Shown here: positions 53,969 to 63,956 of the stretch, in pieces
Layout of the letters: every line of letters begins with the position of its first letter
Numbering within the stretch: the first letter of the stretch is position 1
Assembly (NCBI GenBank): GCA_945829235.1
Contig: CALZUA010000001.1
Location: 186,001 to 250,000, forward strand
Direction of reading: 5' to 3'
Source: an uncultured Clostridia bacterium
Lineage (GTDB): Bacteria; Bacillota; Clostridia; Oscillospirales; Ruminococcaceae
Length of the DNA stretch: 64,000 nucleotides
Notes under the pieces: model-generated
The model's input: only the letters and a program-made list of their open reading frames with translations
Databases searched by the model: none
What the model was told of the DNA's origin: nothing
Translations under genes and position numbers: made by a program

Positions 53969-53997
53969 TTGCAAAAATTGACAATTTGTGATATAAT
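53969..53997 (+). promoter_or_regulatory. Promoter of the FecR-LRR / HD-GYP / cyclase operon
   Basis: TTGCAA (53969-53974), 17 bp, TATAAT (53992-53997) with TGA before it. A TTGACA 8 bp before the -10 is too close to serve as -35. Confidence 0.62.
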
Positions 53998-54027: not shown

Positions 54028-55269
54028 ATGAAAAATTTTCTTTCATCGACAAAAGGAAAAATAATCGCGGGAGCGGTTACGCTTGCGGTAATTGCAGGTG
54101 TTGTTGTGCTGATTATTCTGTTGAACACGGGTTACAGAAACATTCGCGTTGAGAATTTGAGCGGAACAACAAAGGTAACATCGTTAATGAGCATTTCTGA
54201 CGCGTTCAAAGGACAGAATCTGATAAGCGGCGACAAGGTTGAGGTTTTTGAAAAATCATCTTTAACGCTTGCGCTTGATTCGGACAAGCACGTTGTTGCA
54301 AACGAGCTGACGAAATTCAGCCTTGAAGCGTTCGGTGCTGAGGGAAAAGATACGAGAACGGTCATTCACCTCGAAAAAGGCACAATTTCAAATCAAATCG
54401 ACAACAAGCTGCTGCCGTCCGAGAGTTATGTCGTTGAAAGTCCGAACGCTTCGATGTCGGTTCGCGGAACGATTTTCTCGGTGAACGTATTTTTCGATAA
54501 CGAGGGGCTTTGCCATACCGTTGTTGAGGTTAATCAGGGAGTTGTTGAGTTTGCCGAAAAGGGCACTGGAAACGACGAAGTCAAGACGCTCAATGCTGGT
54601 GAAAGCGCTTCTGTTATTTCTCGCGTTATCGAGAAAGGCGATGACAATTCTAGCGTAAACAGCGGCAATAGTTCTTTCGGCATAAATTCCGGCGGCTCGG
54701 CTCAGAAATTGACTTTCGGCGATTTTGTGTACATATATAATGAAACACTCGGCGGAATTGAAATCAAAAAATACAAAGGCAATGATGAAATTGTGAGTAT
54801 TCCTTCGGAAATTAACGGGGAAAAGGTTGTGAAAATCGGAAATAGTGCGTTTTGGAAATGCGAAGTAACAAGTGTGACTATTCCGGACGGCATTACTGAA
54901 ATTGATAATTGTGCGTTTCTTGATTGCGTCAGACTTACAAGTATAGTAATTCCGGACAGCGTTACAAGAATAGGAGAAGCTGCGTTTAGTGCATGCAGAG
55001 GACTTAAAAGTATAGTAATTCCGAACAGCGTTACCCAAATAGAAAAAGGTGTGTTTAACTGCTGCGGACTTACAAGCATAACAATCCCGGACAGCGTTAC
55101 AGTAATAGAAAAGTATGCGTTTGAATCCTGTAACCAACTTCATAGTATAGTAATCCCCGACAGCGTTACAAGAATAGGAAAAGCTGCGTTTGTCAGATGC
55201 ACCGCAACAATAACATACAAAGGCAGAACCTACACTAATGACAATTATGACGATTTGTACACAGAATAA
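54028..55269 (+). CDS. Membrane-anchored FecR-LRR fusion protein
   Basis: A 413-residue envelope protein. A signal anchor spans about residues 11-33. An extracellular FecR domain follows (about 45-200: SGDKVEVFEKSSLTLALDS, VESPNASMSVRGTIFSVNV, VVEVNQGVVEF). A Ser/Gly/Asn linker (about 208-230) leads into five to six BspA-type LRR_5 repeats of 23 residues with the C-terminal motif TITYKGRTYTNDNYDDLY. FecR domains usually relay ligand signals to sigma factors, or sit with CHASE2 proteins. Here the FecR part is joined to ligand-binding-type repeats, an unusual pairing. The start follows AAGGGAG. First gene of a three-gene unit, 37 bp before the next start. Confidence 0.88.
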   Translation: MKNFLSSTKGKIIAGAVTLAVIAGVVVLIILLNTGYRNIRVENLSGTTKVTSLMSISDAFKGQNLISGDKVEVFEKSSLTLALDSDKHVVANELTKFSLEAFGAEGKDTRTVIHLEKGTISNQIDNKLLPSESYVVESPNASMSVRGTIFSVNVFFDNEGLCHTVVEVNQGVVEFAEKGTGNDEVKTLNAGESASVISRVIEKGDDNSSVNSGNSSFGINSGGSAQKLTFGDFVYIYNETLGGIEIKKYKGNDEIVSIPSEINGEKVVKIGNSAFWKCEVTSVTIPDGITEIDNCAFLDCVRLTSIVIPDSVTRIGEAAFSACRGLKSIVIPNSVTQIEKGVFNCCGLTSITIPDSVTVIEKYAFESCNQLHSIVIPDSVTRIGKAAFVRCTATITYKGRTYTNDNYDDLYTE

Positions 55270-55306
55270 CCGATTTGTTTTCGGTGAATTACAATAGGAG
55301 CGTAAA

Positions 55307-57544
55307 ATGAACTATTCAATAATCCCGCTTTCGGAAAATTTTTCGGAAACGGAAGAACTTATTCGCGAATTCGGCGCAAATCTCGAGTACAACGATTTCT
55401 TCTCGCCGGATATTTACGACAATGACGCAGAAATCGAGCGGCTGATTTCGTTTTACAAATCAATCAGCCGCGACAGGTCTGGTGACACGCTTCACGGCGC
55501 TTTTATCGGGCTTGATATATCCTCGGCGGATATTGTTCTGCGAGAGAGAAGCCGCGCGCTGTTCCGAAAGTCAATGCAGATTGCGAGGCGGCTCGGCGTA
55601 AAGGGCGTAGTTTTCCACACGGGACTTTTAGGCGGACTTAATCTGCGGAGTTTTGCGGACAGGTGGCTTGAAAAATCGAAGGGATTTCTGCGCGAGCTTG
55701 CGGGTGAATTTCCCGATACCGAAATATATATCGAAAACACTTTTGAGCAAGAACCGTATGTGTTTGAAAAGCTTGCGAAAGAGCTTGCCGATGTGAAGAA
55801 TTTCGGCTTGTGTATCGACTACGCGCACGCGTCACTCACGAAGGTTCCCGCCTCGGAATGGATAGAAACCCTCGCGCCGTACATTCGTCATATTCACGTC
55901 AACGACAACGATTTGCAGAACGATTTGCACCTTGCGGTCGGCGACGGAAAAATCGATTTTGCGCGGTTTAAATTCCTGCTTGAAAAGTACTGCCCGAACG
56001 TTTCCGTACTTGTGGAAGTCGGCAGCACGGATAAGGCAAAGCGCTCTATTGAATATCTTGAACGAGTAACTCCGTGTGAAAATCACAGTCAAAGCATTGA
56101 CGTTCTCGACAAAATTCTCGATATCGGAATAGCGCTTACAGCAGAACGCAATCCCGATAAACTGCTTGATTTGATTGTTGACACCGCAATGTCGCTGACC
56201 GAAAGCGACGGCGGAACTTTGTACATTGTCGAAGATAACGCGCTGAAATTCAGGATAGTGAAAACCCGCTCAAAGGGCGTTGATATGGGCGGAAACGGCG
56301 ATACACCCGACTTTCCCGTTATCCCGATGAACGAGGAACATATCTGCGCGTACTCGGCAATTACGGGAAAATCGATGAACATTGCCGATGTGTATAATTG
56401 CACGGAATTTGACTTTTCCGGACCTAAGCGTTTTGATTGCCTGAACGATTATCACACGCAGTCAATGGTGACAATTCCGCTACAGAATAAAAGCGGAAAT
56501 ACAATCGGCGTTTTGCAACTGATAAACGCGCAGACAAACGGAAAAATCCGCGAATTTACCGCCGAAGAAGAGCGGATAATCCACGCGCTCGGTTCGCAGA
56601 CAGCCATTGCCCTTGAAAATATGGAATATCTGCACGAGCTGAACGAGCAGATGTGGTCGTTCACCGAGGCGCTGACCGAGGCAATCGACAAGCGAACTCC
56701 CTACAATGCAAGCCACACGCGAAAGGTTGCGGAATACAGCGGAATGCTTGCGGATTATATAAATCAACTCCACGATAGGGGAGAAGAAGCCGAGTATTTC
56801 GATGAGGAACGCAGAAACCGGCTTGTAATGTCCGCGTTGCTCCACGATATCGGAAAGCTGGTTATCCCAAAATCCGTTATGAACAAGGCAACTCGGCTCG
56901 GCGATAAATTTGAAACGGTAATGAGCAGACTGCGCGAAATAAAACTACGCGCGGAGATTGCTTTTCTTAAAAACCGGATAACCGAAAGCGATTTTAATAC
57001 TGTTTCGGAGCGCGTGAAATTCTGCATTGAGTTTGTTGAAAAGGTAAATTCGGCGGGATTTATTGATGATGAAACGGAAAAGAAGCTCGGCGAAATCGCA
57101 GAATATTCGTTTGAAGACGGTGAAGAAAAAATAAAGTTTTTTACCGAAGAAGAGCTTGAAATGCTGAAAATCAAGCGCGGAACGCTTTCCGAAAACGAGC
57201 GGAAGATAATGGAGAGCCACGCGCTGATGACCGAGGAAATTCTCAAAAAGGTTCACTTTAACAGCTCGTTCAAAAACGCGGGAAAATGGGCGGCACAGCA
57301 CCACGAATGTCTGAACGGAAAAGGCTATCCTTATGGGCTGACTGCCGAGGATTTGTGCCTTGAAGTGCGTATTCTTGCGGTTTCGGATATTTGCGATGCG
57401 CTTCTTGCGACAGACCGCCCGTATAAAAAGCCGATGCCGAAAGAAAAAGCGTTTGAGATTATGCACGCAATGGCAGATGACGGAAAAATTGAGCGGCGTT
57501 TGGTTGATTATCTTGAAAATTGTCTTGATGAGAAAAATGTTTGA
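55307..57544 (+). CDS. TIM-barrel / GAF / HD-GYP fusion phosphodiesterase
   Basis: A 745-residue soluble protein. Residues about 1-255 form an endonuclease-IV/xylose-isomerase-like TIM barrel with a full set of likely metal ligands: H104 in FHTGLLGG, E143 in YIENTF, D171 and H174 in CIDYAHAS, H197 in RHIHVNDND and E237 in VLVEVGS. A GAF domain follows (about 262-440). The HD-GYP domain (about 450-745) has H513-D514 in LLHDIGK, HALMTEE, QHHE and intact GKGYP (673-675). About 95 extra residues lie between the HD pair and the next His. HD-GYP enzymes hydrolyse c-di-GMP or cGAMP. The barrel's substrate is unknown. The stop almost touches the cyclase gene. Confidence 0.9.
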   Translation: MNYSIIPLSENFSETEELIREFGANLEYNDFFSPDIYDNDAEIERLISFYKSISRDRSGDTLHGAFIGLDISSADIVLRERSRALFRKSMQIARRLGVKGVVFHTGLLGGLNLRSFADRWLEKSKGFLRELAGEFPDTEIYIENTFEQEPYVFEKLAKELADVKNFGLCIDYAHASLTKVPASEWIETLAPYIRHIHVNDNDLQNDLHLAVGDGKIDFARFKFLLEKYCPNVSVLVEVGSTDKAKRSIEYLERVTPCENHSQSIDVLDKILDIGIALTAERNPDKLLDLIVDTAMSLTESDGGTLYIVEDNALKFRIVKTRSKGVDMGGNGDTPDFPVIPMNEEHICAYSAITGKSMNIADVYNCTEFDFSGPKRFDCLNDYHTQSMVTIPLQNKSGNTIGVLQLINAQTNGKIREFTAEEERIIHALGSQTAIALENMEYLHELNEQMWSFTEALTEAIDKRTPYNASHTRKVAEYSGMLADYINQLHDRGEEAEYFDEERRNRLVMSALLHDIGKLVIPKSVMNKATRLGDKFETVMSRLREIKLRAEIAFLKNRITESDFNTVSERVKFCIEFVEKVNSAGFIDDETEKKLGEIAEYSFEDGEEKIKFFTEEELEMLKIKRGTLSENERKIMESHALMTEEILKKVHFNSSFKNAGKWAAQHHECLNGKGYPYGLTAEDLCLEVRILAVSDICDALLATDRPYKKPMPKEKAFEIMHAMADDGKIERRLVDYLENCLDEKNV

Positions 57545-57546
57545 TT

Positions 57547-59361
57547 ATGAAAAAAACAGTTAAAAAAGTCACGGAAATTATCGTTCCGCTTCTGGCAGCG
57601 CTTCTGACTGTTCTTCTTGTTGTTACGGAGCCGTTTTTCGAGCTTGATTCAATGCTCTGTGACGCAGTTTATTCGCAGATGAACGGCACAGGCGACGAGA
57701 TTGTTATCGTTGCGATAGACGAAGAAACGCTCGCGGAATACGGCGCGTTTTCGGAGTGGTCGCGCGAGCGCTGTGCACAGCTTGCGGACTTTTTGTATTT
57801 CGATGAACAGAACGAGCCGGCGGTTCTTGCTTTTGATATAGTTTTTTCGGGAGAAACGGACGAAGAAGCCGATAATCATCTTGTAAAATCGCTTTCGGGA
57901 CATAACGCGGTCACGGCGACAAATTTTGTTTATCGCGGAACAACGATATATGCGGACGGTGCTCAGAACTATGACGCGTGGAATATCGAAATGGAAGAGC
58001 GCCCGTTTGCCGCGCTTGATAATGTGGTAAATTCGGGCTTTGCGAATGCTCAGCTGTCGCGCGACGGATTTGTTCGCTCGGCTCAGCTTTGGGAGGAGTT
58101 CGCGGGCGAAAAAAGATACAGCTTTGCCGCGCAAATCTATGAGCAATATCAAAAATTGTTCGGAAAAGAAGCGGCTTTCCCGCAGACAAATTCGCGCAAT
58201 CAGGTGTTGTTCGGTTACTCGGGAAAGCCGGGTGAATTTCAGCGATTTTCGTTGAAGGACGTGCTTTCGGGGAGCGTTGATAAACGCAATTTCAAAGACA
58301 AAATCGTTATGGTTGGAGCATACGCAACGGGAATGCAGGACTCGTTCCACACTCCCGCCGACAGAGGCCGCGATATGTTTGGCGTTGAGCTGAACGCGAA
58401 TATCGTCCGTGCGCTTATGCTGGGGAAAACATCGCAGAGAGCGCCTGTTTTGGTTCACGCAGTAATTGCGGCTTTGCTTGTTTTTATTTACGTTTTCACA
58501 GCGCGGAAAATGAAAATGTATCCGGCTGTGCTCTCGGTAATCTGGCTGATAATCGCGGATATCGGCGCGGGCTTTATCCTTTCGCGATGCGGGATAACAA
58601 TAACGTTGATTTATCCGCTGATAGTTGCGGGAGTATTTGCCGCGGCGATTTTTGTTGAAAAATATATCGAGGAAACACTGCGTAAAAAGCGGATTTTGCA
58701 GGGCTTTGAAAAATATCTCGCGCCGCAGGTTATAAAACAGCTTTCAAAGGACGAGGAATACGACTTTACGCTTGGAGTTGAAAAGCGCGAGGTTTGCGTG
58801 CTGTTTGTGGATATACGCGGGTTTACAACAATGTCCGAAAAGCTGGCACCCGAAGAGGTTTCGCAAATCCTCAACGAGTTTCTCTCGGAAGTCACAAAAT
58901 GTGTTTTCCGTCACAGCGGAATGTTGGATAAGTTTATCGGTGACGCGGCAATGGCTGTTTTCAACGCGCCGACCGATCTCGAGGATTATCTTTTCAAGGC
59001 AGTGTGCGCGGCGGTTGATATAAAAAACTGCGGAGAAACTCTCGGGAAGCGCTTGCAGGAACGATACGGAAACAGCGTGAATTTCGGAATAGGGCTTAAC
59101 TGCGGCGAAGCGGTTGTCGGAAACATCGGCTGTGAAATCCGTATGGACTACACCGCAATCGGCGACACGGTAAACACCGCCGCGCGGCTCGAGGCAAAAG
59201 CCGCGGGCGGCGAAATCCTCATAAGCGAGGAACTTTACGAGCGGCTGAAGGACAGAATTGACGCTCGGTTCAAGGAAGAAACCGCGCTGAAAGGCAAGGC
59301 TCTTCCCGTGAAGGTTTACAGCGTTCTTGGCGTTAAAAACGAAGAATTTGTCGTTCGGTGA
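57547..59361 (+). CDS. CHASE2-domain class III adenylate cyclase
   Basis: A 604-residue membrane enzyme. An N-terminal segment (about 9-29) is followed by an extracellular CHASE2 sensor (about 33-300; IVIVAIDEETLAEYG, VLAFDIVFSGETDEEA, VMVGAYATGMQDSFHTP). Three membrane segments (about 303-375) lead to the cyclase domain. There, VLFVDIRGFTTMSE and FIGDAAMAVF hold the two metal Asp residues. The Lys in MLDKFIGD and the Asp in TAIGDTVNTAARLE fit adenine recognition, and Asn and Arg in NTAARLE fit transition-state binding. The catalytic set looks complete, so cAMP production is likely. The ATG at 57547 is 2 bp behind the HD-GYP stop; the ribosome site is weak, which suggests coupling. Confidence 0.92.
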   Translation: MKKTVKKVTEIIVPLLAALLTVLLVVTEPFFELDSMLCDAVYSQMNGTGDEIVIVAIDEETLAEYGAFSEWSRERCAQLADFLYFDEQNEPAVLAFDIVFSGETDEEADNHLVKSLSGHNAVTATNFVYRGTTIYADGAQNYDAWNIEMEERPFAALDNVVNSGFANAQLSRDGFVRSAQLWEEFAGEKRYSFAAQIYEQYQKLFGKEAAFPQTNSRNQVLFGYSGKPGEFQRFSLKDVLSGSVDKRNFKDKIVMVGAYATGMQDSFHTPADRGRDMFGVELNANIVRALMLGKTSQRAPVLVHAVIAALLVFIYVFTARKMKMYPAVLSVIWLIIADIGAGFILSRCGITITLIYPLIVAGVFAAAIFVEKYIEETLRKKRILQGFEKYLAPQVIKQLSKDEEYDFTLGVEKREVCVLFVDIRGFTTMSEKLAPEEVSQILNEFLSEVTKCVFRHSGMLDKFIGDAAMAVFNAPTDLEDYLFKAVCAAVDIKNCGETLGKRLQERYGNSVNFGIGLNCGEAVVGNIGCEIRMDYTAIGDTVNTAARLEAKAAGGEILISEELYERLKDRIDARFKEETALKGKALPVKVYSVLGVKNEEFVVR

Positions 59362-59500: not shown

Positions 59501-59529
59501 TTGACAAAGTTCACAAGCTATGGTATAAT
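59501..59529 (+). promoter_or_regulatory. Promoter of the transglutaminase-like lipoprotein gene
   Basis: TTGACA (59501-59506), 17 bp, TATAAT (59524-59529) with TGG before it. Confidence 0.78.
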
Positions 59530-59570
59530 AAAAAGGCAATTTATGCTGATTTATATCGGAGGGTATGACC

Positions 59571-61478
59571 ATGAAAAAAACTGCTGTATTATTTCTTATA
59601 ACAGCGTCCATCGTTTTGACAGCTTGCTCAAACAGCGGTTATGTTGAAAGCGTTTCTGAAAGCGGAACATCTGCGACAATTGAAAGCTCCGATGAAAGCG
59701 TAACTCTGTCATCGGATAACAGCGAAAGCTCCGACAACAGCACAACTCTATCATCGGATAACAGCAAAAATATCTCATCAACCACCGAGTTATCTTCAAC
59801 AACAGCTTTGGAAAAACCCAAAACGAAGCTCGTAAATGATGAAGATATTAAAATAGATACGGAAAACTTTAAGGTGGGCGGTTACTTGCCTGTAACAGCT
59901 GATGAAAGGTATAAAAATAATGGGTTAAAGTACCCGAATAACAATAACGGAATACTTTTCAGAGAGGGAGAAGAGGAGGATTTGTACAACTGGGTGGCGG
60001 CAGGCTACACCAAGTGGAGAAGAGAAGATGTCAGAATTGCCTCCCGAAAGGGTGGAGAGGACAATCCCAGAATAGCTACATATTTATCGTTGGATAACAG
60101 TGATGAAGAATTGCTGAACGCGAATGACGCAGAGTACTGTATGGTAACGGTAATGAAAGAAAAATATAACGCCGACAATAACGATATTCCCGATGATTTA
60201 AGAGAACTCTTTGAAAAGTTTATCCCAAACGGAAACAAGGAAGAAGGTCGTCCTTATGCGGAAACTTATCAGGAAATAATGGAATATATCGATGCGCATG
60301 ATTTGGAAAAGGAATTGAATTTATTTGCGGGCGAGGGCGATGGGAAAAATGTGGGAACGTTCAATACATTTGTAAATTATAATTGCAGAAATTACTGCGG
60401 CGATACAATTTCCATAAGTATAGACGGCGAGGGAACCGTAAAATCAAACATAGACCCTTCCGGCAAAAGTTCGCGGGTATTTGCGGCGGCGGGCGTGGAT
60501 TATATATTAACCTGCGACGACGACCCCACGGCATTTAAGCTGGTTAAAGACGATGAGTTAAAGTCAATGTATGAAGCAATTTGTGTACAACGGTTTGACG
60601 AACGTGTCTGCTCATCATATAATGCGAATGCAACTTACACCGACCCTTCCTTAGACGGAAGCCAGCGCTTATACCATCAGGCTTATGTCGGAATAAAGCC
60701 GGGAATTTATCGCTGTACGGTAATGATTCCCACGACAGGCGATAAGTTCCCGATTGTAATAGAAACCCTGCCGCTGTATTATAAAACCGGCACAGGTGGT
60801 TGTTATACGCAGGAAGCAATAGACTTTTGTGTACAGCACATGCACAGAATCATCAAGGGACAATATTTCGGTTGGGGTAATAGTTTTGGCGTGAATAACT
60901 GCACGGCAACGTATGAAGATAAGCTGGAAGCAGTAAAAGAGTTTAATTCTAGAAACTATCGAACCTTCGAGGAAGAAAGCATACAATTGAACTATTCCGA
61001 GGAAGCTGCGGAGTGGATATCTCATTTGCCATGTGTGTCATACGGCTTGTATGATTATCCATCGAACCTAAAATATTATGCAATCAATAATTGGATATCA
61101 GAACACGGTCCGTCTAAAGACACTCTTGGCTGTCAATCATATTATGCTCTTAATGCAATAATGGACGGAGCCAACGATTGTGAGAGCCTTACATCATTAT
61201 CTCAATGTATGTTAACCGTGACTGGGTATACAACAAGAGTTGTAATAGGAGGCCATCATATGTTCCTTGAAGCAAAGGTTCCCGCGTCGATAACGAAATC
61301 GGGCAAAGACCAGTGGCTTATGGTAGACAATAGTCATTATACAGGGGATAAGACTGGATATATGAAAAAAGAATATTGTTATAAAGAGGTTGAGGGCTTT
61401 GACACATTCTGGTGGTCAATGTGTTATAATCCCGACATTCCGCGCGAGGAACCCGAGAAAGAAAGTGAACCGGCGTGA
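59571..61478 (+). CDS. Transglutaminase-like surface lipoprotein
   Basis: A 635-residue lipoprotein with lipobox VLTACSN (Cys19). A Ser/Thr/Asp/Asn-rich low-complexity stalk (about 20-75) contains the repeat LSSDNS. A long unassigned region follows (about 85-430). The C-terminal transglutaminase-like domain has its triad as Cys in NDCESLTSL, His in GGHHMFLEA and Asp in LMVDNSHY. Enzymes of this fold cross-link or cleave amide bonds of surface proteins or peptides. The ATG at 59571 is chosen because GGAGGG lies 7 bases upstream. A strong terminator follows, shared with the convergent LRR gene. Confidence 0.85.
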   Translation: MKKTAVLFLITASIVLTACSNSGYVESVSESGTSATIESSDESVTLSSDNSESSDNSTTLSSDNSKNISSTTELSSTTALEKPKTKLVNDEDIKIDTENFKVGGYLPVTADERYKNNGLKYPNNNNGILFREGEEEDLYNWVAAGYTKWRREDVRIASRKGGEDNPRIATYLSLDNSDEELLNANDAEYCMVTVMKEKYNADNNDIPDDLRELFEKFIPNGNKEEGRPYAETYQEIMEYIDAHDLEKELNLFAGEGDGKNVGTFNTFVNYNCRNYCGDTISISIDGEGTVKSNIDPSGKSSRVFAAAGVDYILTCDDDPTAFKLVKDDELKSMYEAICVQRFDERVCSSYNANATYTDPSLDGSQRLYHQAYVGIKPGIYRCTVMIPTTGDKFPIVIETLPLYYKTGTGGCYTQEAIDFCVQHMHRIIKGQYFGWGNSFGVNNCTATYEDKLEAVKEFNSRNYRTFEEESIQLNYSEEAAEWISHLPCVSYGLYDYPSNLKYYAINNWISEHGPSKDTLGCQSYYALNAIMDGANDCESLTSLSQCMLTVTGYTTRVVIGGHHMFLEAKVPASITKSGKDQWLMVDNSHYTGDKTGYMKKEYCYKEVEGFDTFWWSMCYNPDIPREEPEKESEPA

Positions 61479-61486
61479 ATATAAAA

Positions 61487-61519
61487 CAGCCCGAGCGCGT
61501 GACGTTCGGGCTGTTTTTT
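61487..61519. terminator. Bidirectional intrinsic terminator
   Basis: Stem CAGCCCGA / TCGGGCTG (61487-61494, 61506-61513) with TTTTTT after it and TTTTAT on the other strand. It lies between convergent genes; the minus-strand stop codon overlaps the T tract. Confidence 0.9.
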
Positions 61520-62738
61520 AGTTGTCATTTTTGACGCTGTACAATTTCTTATATTCATCGGAATTATAAATTCTGCCTTTGTAGGTGACGCTTGCTGAGA
61601 AAAACATAAACGCGTTGTTTCCTATTGCCGTAACGCTGTCGGGAATGAAAAGGTTTGAAAGTCCCCGGCAACCTGTAAACGCGCCGGCTCCTATTTCCGT
61701 AACGCCGCTTGGAATGGTTAAGCTTGTAAGTCCCGGGCAACCTGCAAACGTGCCGGTTTTTATTTTTGTGACACCGCTCGGAATTGTTAGGCTTGTAAGT
61801 TCACAACAATTGTAAAACGCACCTTCTTCTATTTCGGTAACATTGTCGGGAATATTTAAACTTGTAAGTCCCAAGCACGAGGAAAAAGCATATTTCCCGA
61901 TTTTTTTAACGCTGTCGGGAAGTGTAATGCTTGTAAGCCCAACGCAGTCGTGAAACGCATTGCTGTCTATTTCCGTAACGCCGTCGGGAATTGTGATTTT
62001 GCCTTCTTTTTTTGCGGGACATTGCACAAGCCGTGTCATATCCTTGGTGTACAAAATCCCGTTTTTTACGGTATAGTACCGGTTTTCTTCGTCTACGATG
62101 AATTTCTTAAGCTCCGAGCAGTTTCCGAAAGCATTTTGTCCGATTCTTTCAACACTGGGCGGAATTGAAATATTTGTAAGTCCCGAACAGCCGAAAAACG
62201 CGCCTTCGTCTATTTCGGAAACACCGTTAGAAATAATCAGTTTTTTAAGTCCCGTGCAACCCGCAAACGCGCCTTTACCTATATGTGTAACGCTTTGTGG
62301 AATTTTAATTTTTTCAATTCCCGTACAGCCGTAGAACGCGCCGTCTTTTATATCTTTAATTCCGTTCAGAATTGTTATGCTTTCAATTCCCTCGTATTTG
62401 AAAAAGATAGAATTTGTAATTGATGTAACTTCTTTACCGTCAATTTCTGCGGGAAAAATCACATCTCGGGTTCTGCCTATGTATTTTGTGAGTTCAACGC
62501 CGCCAAGCTCTTCATTGTCTTTGTATTTGAAGAGAATATCGGGAGGCTCCGACTCGTTGTCGGAGTCACTTGACTGCCCCTCGGAAATGTTGATTGAAGA
62601 CAAGTTTTCATAATCGCTTGACGCATCACTCGTGCTTGGGGAAGAGGTCTCGGATTCGGTATTGCCGCTGCAAGCGGTCAAAGCAAGCGCCAAAACCGCA
62701 GCCGTGACAGCGCTCGGGATTTTTTTGATGTTTATCAT
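61518..62738 (-). CDS. BspA-type LRR lipoprotein
   Basis: A 406-residue surface lipoprotein with lipobox LALTACSG (Cys23), a Ser/Glu-rich stalk (to about 60) and the shared lead NEELGGVELTKYIG. About eleven LRR_5 repeats of 23 residues follow. An island in the middle (FIVDEENRYYTVKNGILYTK; LVQCPAKKEG) interrupts the repeats, as in BspA. The C-terminus is SVTYKGRIYNSDEYKKLY. Such proteins bind host or plant-derived ligands at the cell surface; the ligand is unknown. It lies 48 bp behind the next LRR gene on the same strand and is probably co-transcribed with it. Confidence 0.9.
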   Translation of the reverse strand: MINIKKIPSAVTAAVLALALTACSGNTESETSSPSTSDASSDYENLSSINISEGQSSDSDNESEPPDILFKYKDNEELGGVELTKYIGRTRDVIFPAEIDGKEVTSITNSIFFKYEGIESITILNGIKDIKDGAFYGCTGIEKIKIPQSVTHIGKGAFAGCTGLKKLIISNGVSEIDEGAFFGCSGLTNISIPPSVERIGQNAFGNCSELKKFIVDEENRYYTVKNGILYTKDMTRLVQCPAKKEGKITIPDGVTEIDSNAFHDCVGLTSITLPDSVKKIGKYAFSSCLGLTSLNIPDNVTEIEEGAFYNCCELTSLTIPSGVTKIKTGTFAGCPGLTSLTIPSGVTEIGAGAFTGCRGLSNLFIPDSVTAIGNNAFMFFSASVTYKGRIYNSDEYKKLYSVKNDN

Positions 62739-62786
62739 GGTTTGCCCTTTCCATAATTTTTGTTTTGCAAATCCGGGTTAATTGTT

Positions 62787-63956
62787 CTAAGAAACTTCGG
62801 ACAAAAATTTGCTGTATCCGTCAAAAAAGTTTATGACTTCGCATAATGATTCGGTATATTGCGGACCGTAAGCAATTCCCTGACAGTAAACCACTGCGTT
62901 GCACCCTGAAAACGAATAATATCCCAATTCCCTTATGTTATCGGGTATTGTTACGCTAATCAGCCCGATACAGTCGCTGAACGCGTTTTTCCCGATTTTA
63001 CTGACGCGCTCCGGAATTGTAATGCTTGTTAACGAAAAACAGCCCAGAAAAGCGTCATGGTCAATGGTATAAACGTTTTCGGGAATTGTAATGCTTGTTA
63101 ATGCAGTGCAACCCGAAAACGCATATCCACCTATTTCGTTAATACTTTCGGGCAGGGAAATGCTTTCAAGCCCGTGGCAGTTCTGAAACAATCCTGCGCT
63201 TATTGTTTTAACGCTTTCGGGTATTGTAATATTTTTAAGTCCCGAGCAACCGGAAAACGCATATTTTCCGATTGAAGTCACGCTATCGGGAATTGCCACG
63301 CTTTTAAGACCGAAGCAACCCGAAAACACGCAATCTCCTATTTCCGTAACACCGTTTGGAATAGTAATTTCATTAAGTTCAGAGCAATCGTAAAACGCTG
63401 AGTTTTTGATAACCGAAACGCTGTTTGGAATGGAAACGCTTGTAAGCCCCGAACAACCGTAAAATGCGTTTTCTTGAATAACAGAAACGCTGTTCGGAAT
63501 TGTAATGTCTGTAAGTCCCGAACAGTTGTAAAATGACCACATTGCTATTTCCGAAATGCTGTTGGGAATTGTAACGCTTGTAAGACTCGTGCATTCCTTG
63601 AACGCGCCATATCCTATTTCTTTAACGCTGTTCGGGATGGTAACGCTTGTAATTTCCGTGCAACCGGCAAACGCGCAATCTTCAATTCGTACAACCTTTT
63701 TTCCGTCAATCTCCGCCGGAACAGTCACCTTGGTTTCGTTGCCTATATATTTCGTGATAATCAGCCCACCCAAATCTTTGTCTTCCGTGAAATTAAAGTC
63801 ATCGGCAGGCTCTTTATCAACTGGACTTGTATATTCCGAAGATGACGAGGAGCTGTCGGAAGAAGTCGAGATATTTTGGCTGTCGCCGCACGCAGTCAAG
63901 GTTAAAAGCATTATCGTTGCTGTAATTGCACACAAGGTTTTTTTGCAGTTTTTCAT
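62787..63956 (-). CDS. BspA-type LRR lipoprotein
   Basis: A 389-residue surface lipoprotein with lipobox TLTACGD (Cys23), a Ser-rich stalk (about 25-50), the lead EDKDLGGLIITKYIG and about twelve uninterrupted 23-residue LRR_5 repeats (TSVTIPNSVKEIGYGAF type). The C-terminus ends in VVYCQGIAYGPQYTESL, a variant of the shared tail with an extra Cys. At DNA level the repeats have a 69-bp period. The start follows GGAAAGG. It is upstream of the other LRR gene, and the promoter probably lies beyond the window edge. Confidence 0.9.
   Translation of the reverse strand: MKNCKKTLCAITATIMLLTLTACGDSQNISTSSDSSSSSSEYTSPVDKEPADDFNFTEDKDLGGLIITKYIGNETKVTVPAEIDGKKVVRIEDCAFAGCTEITSVTIPNSVKEIGYGAFKECTSLTSVTIPNSISEIAMWSFYNCSGLTDITIPNSVSVIQENAFYGCSGLTSVSIPNSVSVIKNSAFYDCSELNEITIPNGVTEIGDCVFSGCFGLKSVAIPDSVTSIGKYAFSGCSGLKNITIPESVKTISAGLFQNCHGLESISLPESINEIGGYAFSGCTALTSITIPENVYTIDHDAFLGCFSLTSITIPERVSKIGKNAFSDCIGLISVTIPDNIRELGYYSFSGCNAVVYCQGIAYGPQYTESLCEVINFFDGYSKFLSEVS

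Follow-up and report, generated by a model that had tools for sequence, protein, structure and literature searches.

The stretch of DNA analysed here, 64,000 nucleotides of contig CALZUA010000001.1 from an uncultured Clostridia bacterium (hereafter the window), raises the question of what three consecutive plus-strand genes between positions 54,028 and 59,361 do together. They encode a FecR-domain protein with leucine-rich repeats (LRRs), a protein in which a TIM barrel is joined to GAF and HD-GYP domains, and a CHASE2 membrane sensor with an attached class III adenylyl cyclase. A reading made from the DNA letters and their translations (the sequence-only reading) had proposed one undescribed unit that couples envelope sensing to the synthesis of cyclic AMP (cAMP) and the breakdown of cyclic dinucleotides. 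Results of our analysis indicate that the operon represents one variant of a signalling module that is widespread in gut Clostridia. Its most informative part is the TIM barrel, to which the sequence-only reading had assigned a metal site but no role, because this barrel follows the cyclases more closely than HD-GYP does. We propose with moderate confidence that the module is a FecR/CHASE2-controlled cAMP system with exchangeable outputs, in which the TIM barrel would be a cyclic-mononucleotide phosphodiesterase of endonuclease IV fold. The wider claim, that the barrel founds a new class of such phosphodiesterases serving several kinds of cyclases and that the window protein destroys both cAMP and cyclic di-GMP (c-di-GMP), seems to us evenly poised.

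The arrangement of the window operon is real. All three genes are present in the list of open reading frames (ORFs), the first encoding 413 amino acids (aa), the second (55307-57544) 745 aa, and the third extending from 57541 to 59361; the ATG at 57547 is the likelier start of the last one, so the gaps of 37 and 2 bp given by the sequence-only reading are confirmed. The same gene set recurs in other loci, which makes it more than a chance assembly. A homologue of the cyclase (E-value 1e-20) was found in 10 of 148 genomes of the window genome's family, its own genome included, and in seven of the nine other genomes a stand-alone TIM barrel of about 260 residues is encoded in the same cluster. 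A bait search of a named genome collection with eight TIM sequences gave 264 relatives; in the best 80 of them, mostly Lachnospiraceae by title, genes were taken as ORFs from a script, as in the other loci described below (numbered with L). Within 6 kb of TIM, these 80 loci contain a cyclase in 75 cases, FecR in 70, HD-GYP in 68, GGDEF in seven, a protein binding cyclic nucleoside monophosphates (cNMP) in six and a metallo-beta-lactamase (MBL) in none; MBL and cNMP genes, like the NHL, RsbW and STAS genes mentioned later, were sought by phmmer with one to three query sequences each, and divergent copies may escape such a search. TIM and cyclase genes occur together in 103 loci, from sets that overlap slightly, on the same strand in 102 and within 100 bp of each other in 88. 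The three genes are thus neighbours in related genomes, as the idea of one unit implied, and the set recurs in gut Clostridia, but the exact fused form of the window is only one variant, as TIM and GAF-HD-GYP are usually encoded by separate genes.

In the alignment to Nfo of Escherichia coli, the window TIM barrel matches nine of nine ligands (the set given for CpEndoIV in the accessible part of PMC13113976) of the endonuclease IV metal site. They are invariant in 113 of 113 copies that reach all nine, the count being based on 115 copies (112 distinct) without the truncated remnant L118. Nfo shares its fold and these ligands with the TIM barrel and cleaves phosphodiester bonds; the cobamide phosphodiesterase CbiR, according to the available text of PMC7733943, also cleaves such bonds, has the same fold and is sensitive to oxygen. 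The TIM barrel differs from both in its gene neighbours and in scoring far below the NCBIfam cut-offs (31.8 bits vs. 129.65 for the endonuclease IV model TIGR00587, and 39.1 bits vs. 105 for the CbiR model NF041277). Two of its loops, possibly those for DNA recognition, are shorter than in Nfo (23 vs. 34 and 9 vs. 13 residues). A Pfam search with eight TIM barrels detected AP_endonuc_2 as the only family in all eight and no known phosphodiesterase family. Of the solved structures, those of TTHB071 and MJ1311 are closest, and their entries describe them as uncharacterized or epimerase-like; such structural matches speak for fold and not for function.

Class III cyclases use two metal-binding aspartates, a base-recognition lysine with threonine or aspartate, and a transition-state asparagine and arginine. 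Residues D422, K462, D466, T536 and N543 of the window cyclase are invariant in all 142 aligned cyclases, and R547 is kept in 141 (histidine in L128); K462 and T536 are presumably those of class IIIb adenylyl cyclases. Both the complete TIM metal site and the intact cyclase residues asserted by the sequence-only reading are therefore upheld. All 70 HD-GYP proteins keep the residues of the HD and HHE-GYP motifs without change, that of the window being aligned to 4mcw and 5z7c, while E367, which is not a motif residue, is kept in 16 of 70. In 92 of the 93 HD-GYP proteins of the module that were measured (of 105), the distance from HDIGK to HHE is lengthened by about 100 residues.

The association of TIM with cyclases was followed in two samples drawn regardless of gene context: 391 genomes of the class and 250 genomes of the family of genome G348. 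The former contain 20 genomes with a TIM match at 1e-20, six of them above 200 bits, including the truncated remnant L118; this limit was set after a gap between 144 and 215 bits had been seen. All five intact TIMs above it occur among the 18 genomes with a CHASE2-cyclase (hypergeometric 1e-7, relatedness ignored). In the 250-genome sample TIM (1e-45) was found in 27 genomes and class III cyclase in 47, and all of the 27 are among the 47 (hypergeometric 8e-24, relatedness again ignored). By score, CHASE2-cyclase is present in 44 of the 250, three of which matched through CHASE2 only; six CHASE2-only matches and the fragment L180 were left out of the sampled cyclase loci. At the 27 sampled TIM loci a cyclase lies within 6 kb in 23 and HD-GYP in 12, and FecR lies equally near the sampled cyclase in 32 of 42 loci of the 250-genome sample and in 13 of 16 of the class sample. 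TIM also remains in loci in which no HD-GYP was found (L013-L018, L056, L091, L101), and stands beside cyclases without CHASE2 in L134, L135 and L136. Among 299 genomes of the phylum, TIM (1e-45) was detected in three, one of them outside the class.

Several of these loci have an organization of their own. In L134 (4903-9097) and L135 (4809-9108), genes of a cyclase, a TIR-type protein, a GAF-GGDEF protein and TIM lie in a row on one strand, which may represent a pairing of cyclase with TIR as in Pycsar systems, accompanied by a TIM enzyme. Locus L136 (6787-9456) comprises a cyclase with a weak PAS match, a divergent TIM with EVMDV in place of EYNDF, and a cNMP-binding protein. The base-recognition sites of the L136 cyclase, inspected by eye, are occupied by E and G, which we take to be as in guanylyl cyclases, and beside cyclases of this type the TIM substrate is possibly cyclic GMP. 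The locus from outside the class, L183 (9152-10568), has a gene of a CYTH-domain protein and, 43 bp behind it, that of a TIM relative; this stretch showed no class III cyclase. The CYTH fold is shared by class IV adenylyl cyclases and by triphosphatases. The remnant in L118 (7049-8239) is a truncated CHASE2-TIM followed by FecR; its genome (G063) gave no class III cyclase match, and the remnant is probably a decayed module. In L022 (1097-4382), CHASE2 is fused directly to HD-GYP and accompanied by a FecR gene; perhaps this sensor drives c-di-GMP breakdown without a cyclase.

From the observed gene content, gene order, residues and co-occurrence we predict activities, ligands and a direction of regulation as follows. 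The FecR protein and CHASE2, outside the membrane, would read the extracellular state and set the activity of the cyclase. The attached class III adenylyl cyclase would make cAMP, a prediction drawn from the completeness of its residues. The TIM barrel, with its endonuclease IV fold and three-metal-site ligands, would hydrolyse the cyclic mononucleotide and reset the signal, and the output would pass through exchangeable partners: HD-GYP, GAF-GGDEF or proteins that bind cNMP, cNMP-SpoIIE being one example. GAF-HD-GYP of the window would lower c-di-GMP, and the single TIM-GAF-HD-GYP polypeptide would join this breakdown to that of cAMP. The recurring genes are compatible with the envelope sensing, cAMP synthesis and cyclic-dinucleotide breakdown suggested earlier. 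If the proposal is true, a new type of cyclic-nucleotide-degrading enzyme has arisen on a DNA-repair fold, and a family without an assigned role is predicted to be a phosphodiesterase class. The module would then tie cAMP to c-di-GMP and provide gut Lachnospiraceae and their relatives with a concrete, predicted cAMP circuit of sensor, synthesis, breakdown and outputs.

The candidate output proteins differ between loci. GAF-GGDEF proteins are encoded in eight of 90 loci (two of identical sequence), cNMP-SpoIIE proteins with RsbW-like and STAS genes in L056, L091, L101 and L172, and cNMP-DUF2225 proteins in L016 and L168. The cNMP proteins of L016, L056, L080, L101 and L102 keep, by eye, the GE...R(S/G)A cassette, which is typical of cAMP binding. 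In L080 (2649-6310), genes of FecR, an ion channel with an RCK domain, a stand-alone cNMP-binding protein and TIM follow each other. A profile search of the window genome (3.2 Mb, 52 contigs) gave a single match each for CHASE2 and class III cyclase, both being the window protein, 18 GGDEF matches (17 over the cut-off) and two cNMP-binding matches.

Cyclase loci that lack TIM often contain an MBL gene instead. In the 250-genome sample, 20 of 42 cyclase loci carry TIM at a distance of up to 6 kb, and none of these 20 has an MBL gene, while 12 of the 22 TIM-less loci have one within 6 kb and a thirteenth (L147) has it further off; in the remaining nine no MBL was found (L145, L158, L161 and L162 are cut by contig ends, and L177-L179 come from genomes with TIM elsewhere). 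The class sample gave MBL in three of 14 TIM-less and in neither of two TIM-containing cyclase loci. All 16 MBL proteins in the sampled loci belong to PF12706 over the cut-off and carry HxHxDH, and the best match of the only one compared with the Protein Data Bank (L127) is 6KNS. The same Pfam family includes Rv1339, described in the consulted part of PMC9293780 as an atypical class II cyclic-nucleotide phosphodiesterase for which 6KNS served as model template; its metallo-beta-lactamase fold has no relation to that of the TIM barrel. The cyclase tree places the two kinds of loci on two sides, a TIM side of 28 rows (23 with TIM, 5 with neither) and an MBL side of 31 rows (15 with MBL, 16 with neither). 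The replacement therefore appears to be about one event, and many independent swaps were rejected. NHL-repeat-like proteins were noted near FecR or CHASE2-cyclase in L121, L124, L127, L130, L132, L145-L147, L158, L159 and L178, which lie on the MBL side of the tree, and in L020, which is not on the tree; the protein of L124, tested with Pfam, also has S-layer domains.

A number of results weigh against the proposed cAMP module and its TIM phosphodiesterase. By fold comparison, in which epimerases rank among the best matches, phosphodiesterases and sugar epimerases cannot be told apart. Fourteen weaker TIM matches in the class sample (78-144 bits), presumably members of other families, all fall outside the 18 genomes with CHASE2-cyclase. 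The 6 kb around TIM are free of a cyclase in five of 80 bait loci (the short contigs L024, L080 and L102, and L037 and L098, which are not short) and in four of 27 sampled loci, and in L098, L138 and L139 a search for its partners found none of them. The cyclases of L134-L136 carry, by eye, other base-recognition residues, and the nucleotide may vary for this reason. Both cNMP-binding proteins of the window genome are, by eye, without the canonical arginine, and the assignment of FecR in the window rests on a borderline Pfam score (24.1 vs. a cut-off of 24.0 bits). In the GAF domains, N of the GAF motif NKFDE is present in 70 of 70 and F in 68 of 70, but K in one of 70, so that binding of cAMP by GAF is unsupported. 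The TIM-less cyclase loci L177-L179 lack MBL, and their genomes hold TIM elsewhere. For the two MBL proteins tested, ribonuclease Z models score higher than the phosphodiesterase model NF041851, all below the cut-off, and, given a single replacement, the Fisher value of 7e-5 for TIM versus MBL overstates the case.

Other roles of the TIM barrel were considered. It may be a metal hydrolase of the module acting on another molecule (for example on 5'-AMP, on a linear dinucleotide, or on whichever metabolite binds to GAF), with cAMP removed by another enzyme. This would agree with the epimerase-like or uncharacterized status of TTHB071 and MJ1311 and with the range of substrates of the AP_endonuc_2 superfamily, which takes in DNA, cobamide and sugars (PMC7733943, in its accessible text). 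We nevertheless regard it as unlikely, as TIM tracks several kinds of cyclases and a search of the 6 kb around it in the 80 bait loci (best of 264) and the 27 sampled loci gave no PF12706 gene.

A two-step breakdown, in which HD-GYP opens c-di-GMP, TIM cleaves the linear product and the cyclase is merely a co-regulated neighbour, might explain the TIM-HD-GYP fusions of the window and L140, the proximity of HD-GYP to TIM in 68 of 80 bait loci, and L133, where TIM lies beside HD-GYP and the cyclase is on another contig. However, TIM is kept with GGDEF or cNMP proteins and with no HD-GYP found in L013, L014, L016-L018, L056, L091, L101 and L134-L136, and at the sampled loci it is accompanied by a cyclase almost twice as often as by HD-GYP. 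As TIM stays without HD-GYP, the two-step scheme was rejected and appears improbable to us. A sugar isomerase or epimerase, by which the operon would couple sugar metabolism to signalling, is suggested by the same fold and the epimerase matches, but is very improbable: epimerases use one metal, whereas nine endonuclease IV ligands are invariant here, and the gene clusters present in more than 16 of 90 loci comprise cyclase/HD-GYP, TIM, FecR and a secreted protein, with no sugar enzyme. The nine ligands and the cyclase linkage led us to reject it as a first choice. That the genes are ordinary neighbours without a common pathway is hardly credible in view of their tight spacing and of how often TIM has a cyclase nearby (75 of 80 bait loci and 23 of 27 sampled loci). 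The secreted protein mentioned above belongs to a repetitive, loosely clustered family (c3) that recurs in 53 of 90 loci.

The claim that the system is undescribed may hold for its TIM version, of which our searches gave no description, and not for the whole idea, because clusters of CHASE2-adenylate cyclase, phosphodiesterase, FecR and TPR proteins have already been reported in Campylobacterota. According to the part of that report available (PMC9239204), its authors inferred one pathway, and the phosphodiesterase was reported to be able to hydrolyse cAMP. The window likewise has a CHASE2-class III cyclase beside a FecR-domain protein; it comes from another phylum, and the same part of PMC9239204 mentions neither a TIM barrel of endonuclease IV fold, nor GAF-HD-GYP, nor a fusion of this kind. 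In the Burkholderia BiofilmReg operon, as far as the accessible text of PMC5192318 describes it, a LysM-FecR protein also adjoins a CHASE2 membrane sensor, but the latter is a histidine kinase with a response regulator as output, and no cyclase is involved. No extracytoplasmic function sigma factor, as in the FecI/FecR iron-citrate type, was detected by Pfam among the three proteins and five neighbours. The cyclase domain of the window matches Pycsar PycC models at 1e-31, and the other two operon proteins match no Pycsar effector; membership in Pycsar was rejected, since the PycC matches reflect the general cyclase domain and no adjacent effector match exists. Among the literature matches listed, of mostly open-access coverage, we found no description of the module in Clostridia, no cyclic-nucleotide phosphodiesterase of endonuclease IV fold, and no cAMP module in gut Lachnospiraceae and their relatives.

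Two features are particular to the window variant, namely the fusion of TIM to GAF-HD-GYP and the LRRs of the FecR protein. Among the scanned loci, L140 alone was seen to have a second TIM-HD-GYP fusion, a protein of 765 aa encoded directly behind the cyclase. The two fused TIMs do not group in a quick tree (approximately unbiased test, p 0.0095, for a pair picked after the loci had been seen; the L140 branch is long), which suggests that the fusion arose twice. A Pfam search of 35 FecR proteins found FecR in 33 and LRR_5 in that of the window only, while single proteins have parts that resemble InlB, cadherin or Ig domains; the sensor thus appears variable in its outer portion. An LRR-containing FecR protein is also encoded in L024, a close relative of the window locus. 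The LRR was therefore rejected as a conserved sensor, and the ligand capture by LRRs that the sequence-only reading had in mind is not a general mechanism. Its further suggestion, that the neighbouring dockerin and LRR surface proteins could be targets of the system, finds no support in the observations made here.

The features of the operon are collected in the table below. LRR_5, AP_endonuc_2, GAF, HD/HD_5, CHASE2 and Guanylate_cyc score over the Pfam cut-offs. The N-terminal membrane stretch of the FecR-LRR protein has its hydropathy peak at residue 12, and membrane stretches flank CHASE2 on both sides.

Features of the three-gene operon (positions in the window)
Feature	Position	Strand	Basis
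Promoter-like site TTGCAA-17-TATAAT, TG before second hexamer	53969..53997	+	Consensus scan, 10/12, extended -10
FecR-LRR protein, N-terminal membrane anchor	54028..55269	+	ORF, Pfam, hydropathy
FecR domain	54235-54549	+	Pfam
BspA-type LRR	54832-55203	+	Pfam LRR_5
TIM barrel, xylose isomerase-like/endonuclease IV superfamily	55307..56092	+	Pfam AP_endonuc_2, ligand alignment, structure model, fold comparison
GAF domain, proposed sensor input of HD-GYP	56153..56614	+	Pfam
HD-GYP domain, catalytic motifs complete, insert of about 100 residues	56708..57496	+	Pfam HD/HD_5, alignment
CHASE2-transmembrane-class III cyclase	57547..59361	+	Pfam CHASE2, Guanylate_cyc; hydropathy; residue alignment
CHASE2 domain	about 57598-58461	+	Pfam
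Class III cyclase domain	about 58783-59319	+	Pfam Guanylate_cyc

The promoter-like site is weak evidence, because the consensus scan gave 20 such sites in the region vs. 8.7 expected. No plus-strand terminator-like site was listed in the two intergenic gaps by a scan in which such sites are common by chance. Downstream of the operon, a perfect sigma-70 promoter consensus with extended -10 (59501-59529) precedes an ORF (59565-61478) for a lipoprotein-like product of 637 aa without a Pfam match. Two BspA-type LRR proteins, with repeats of the same Pfam family as the tail of the FecR-LRR protein, are encoded on the minus strand at 61518-63956 and are a possible source of this tail.

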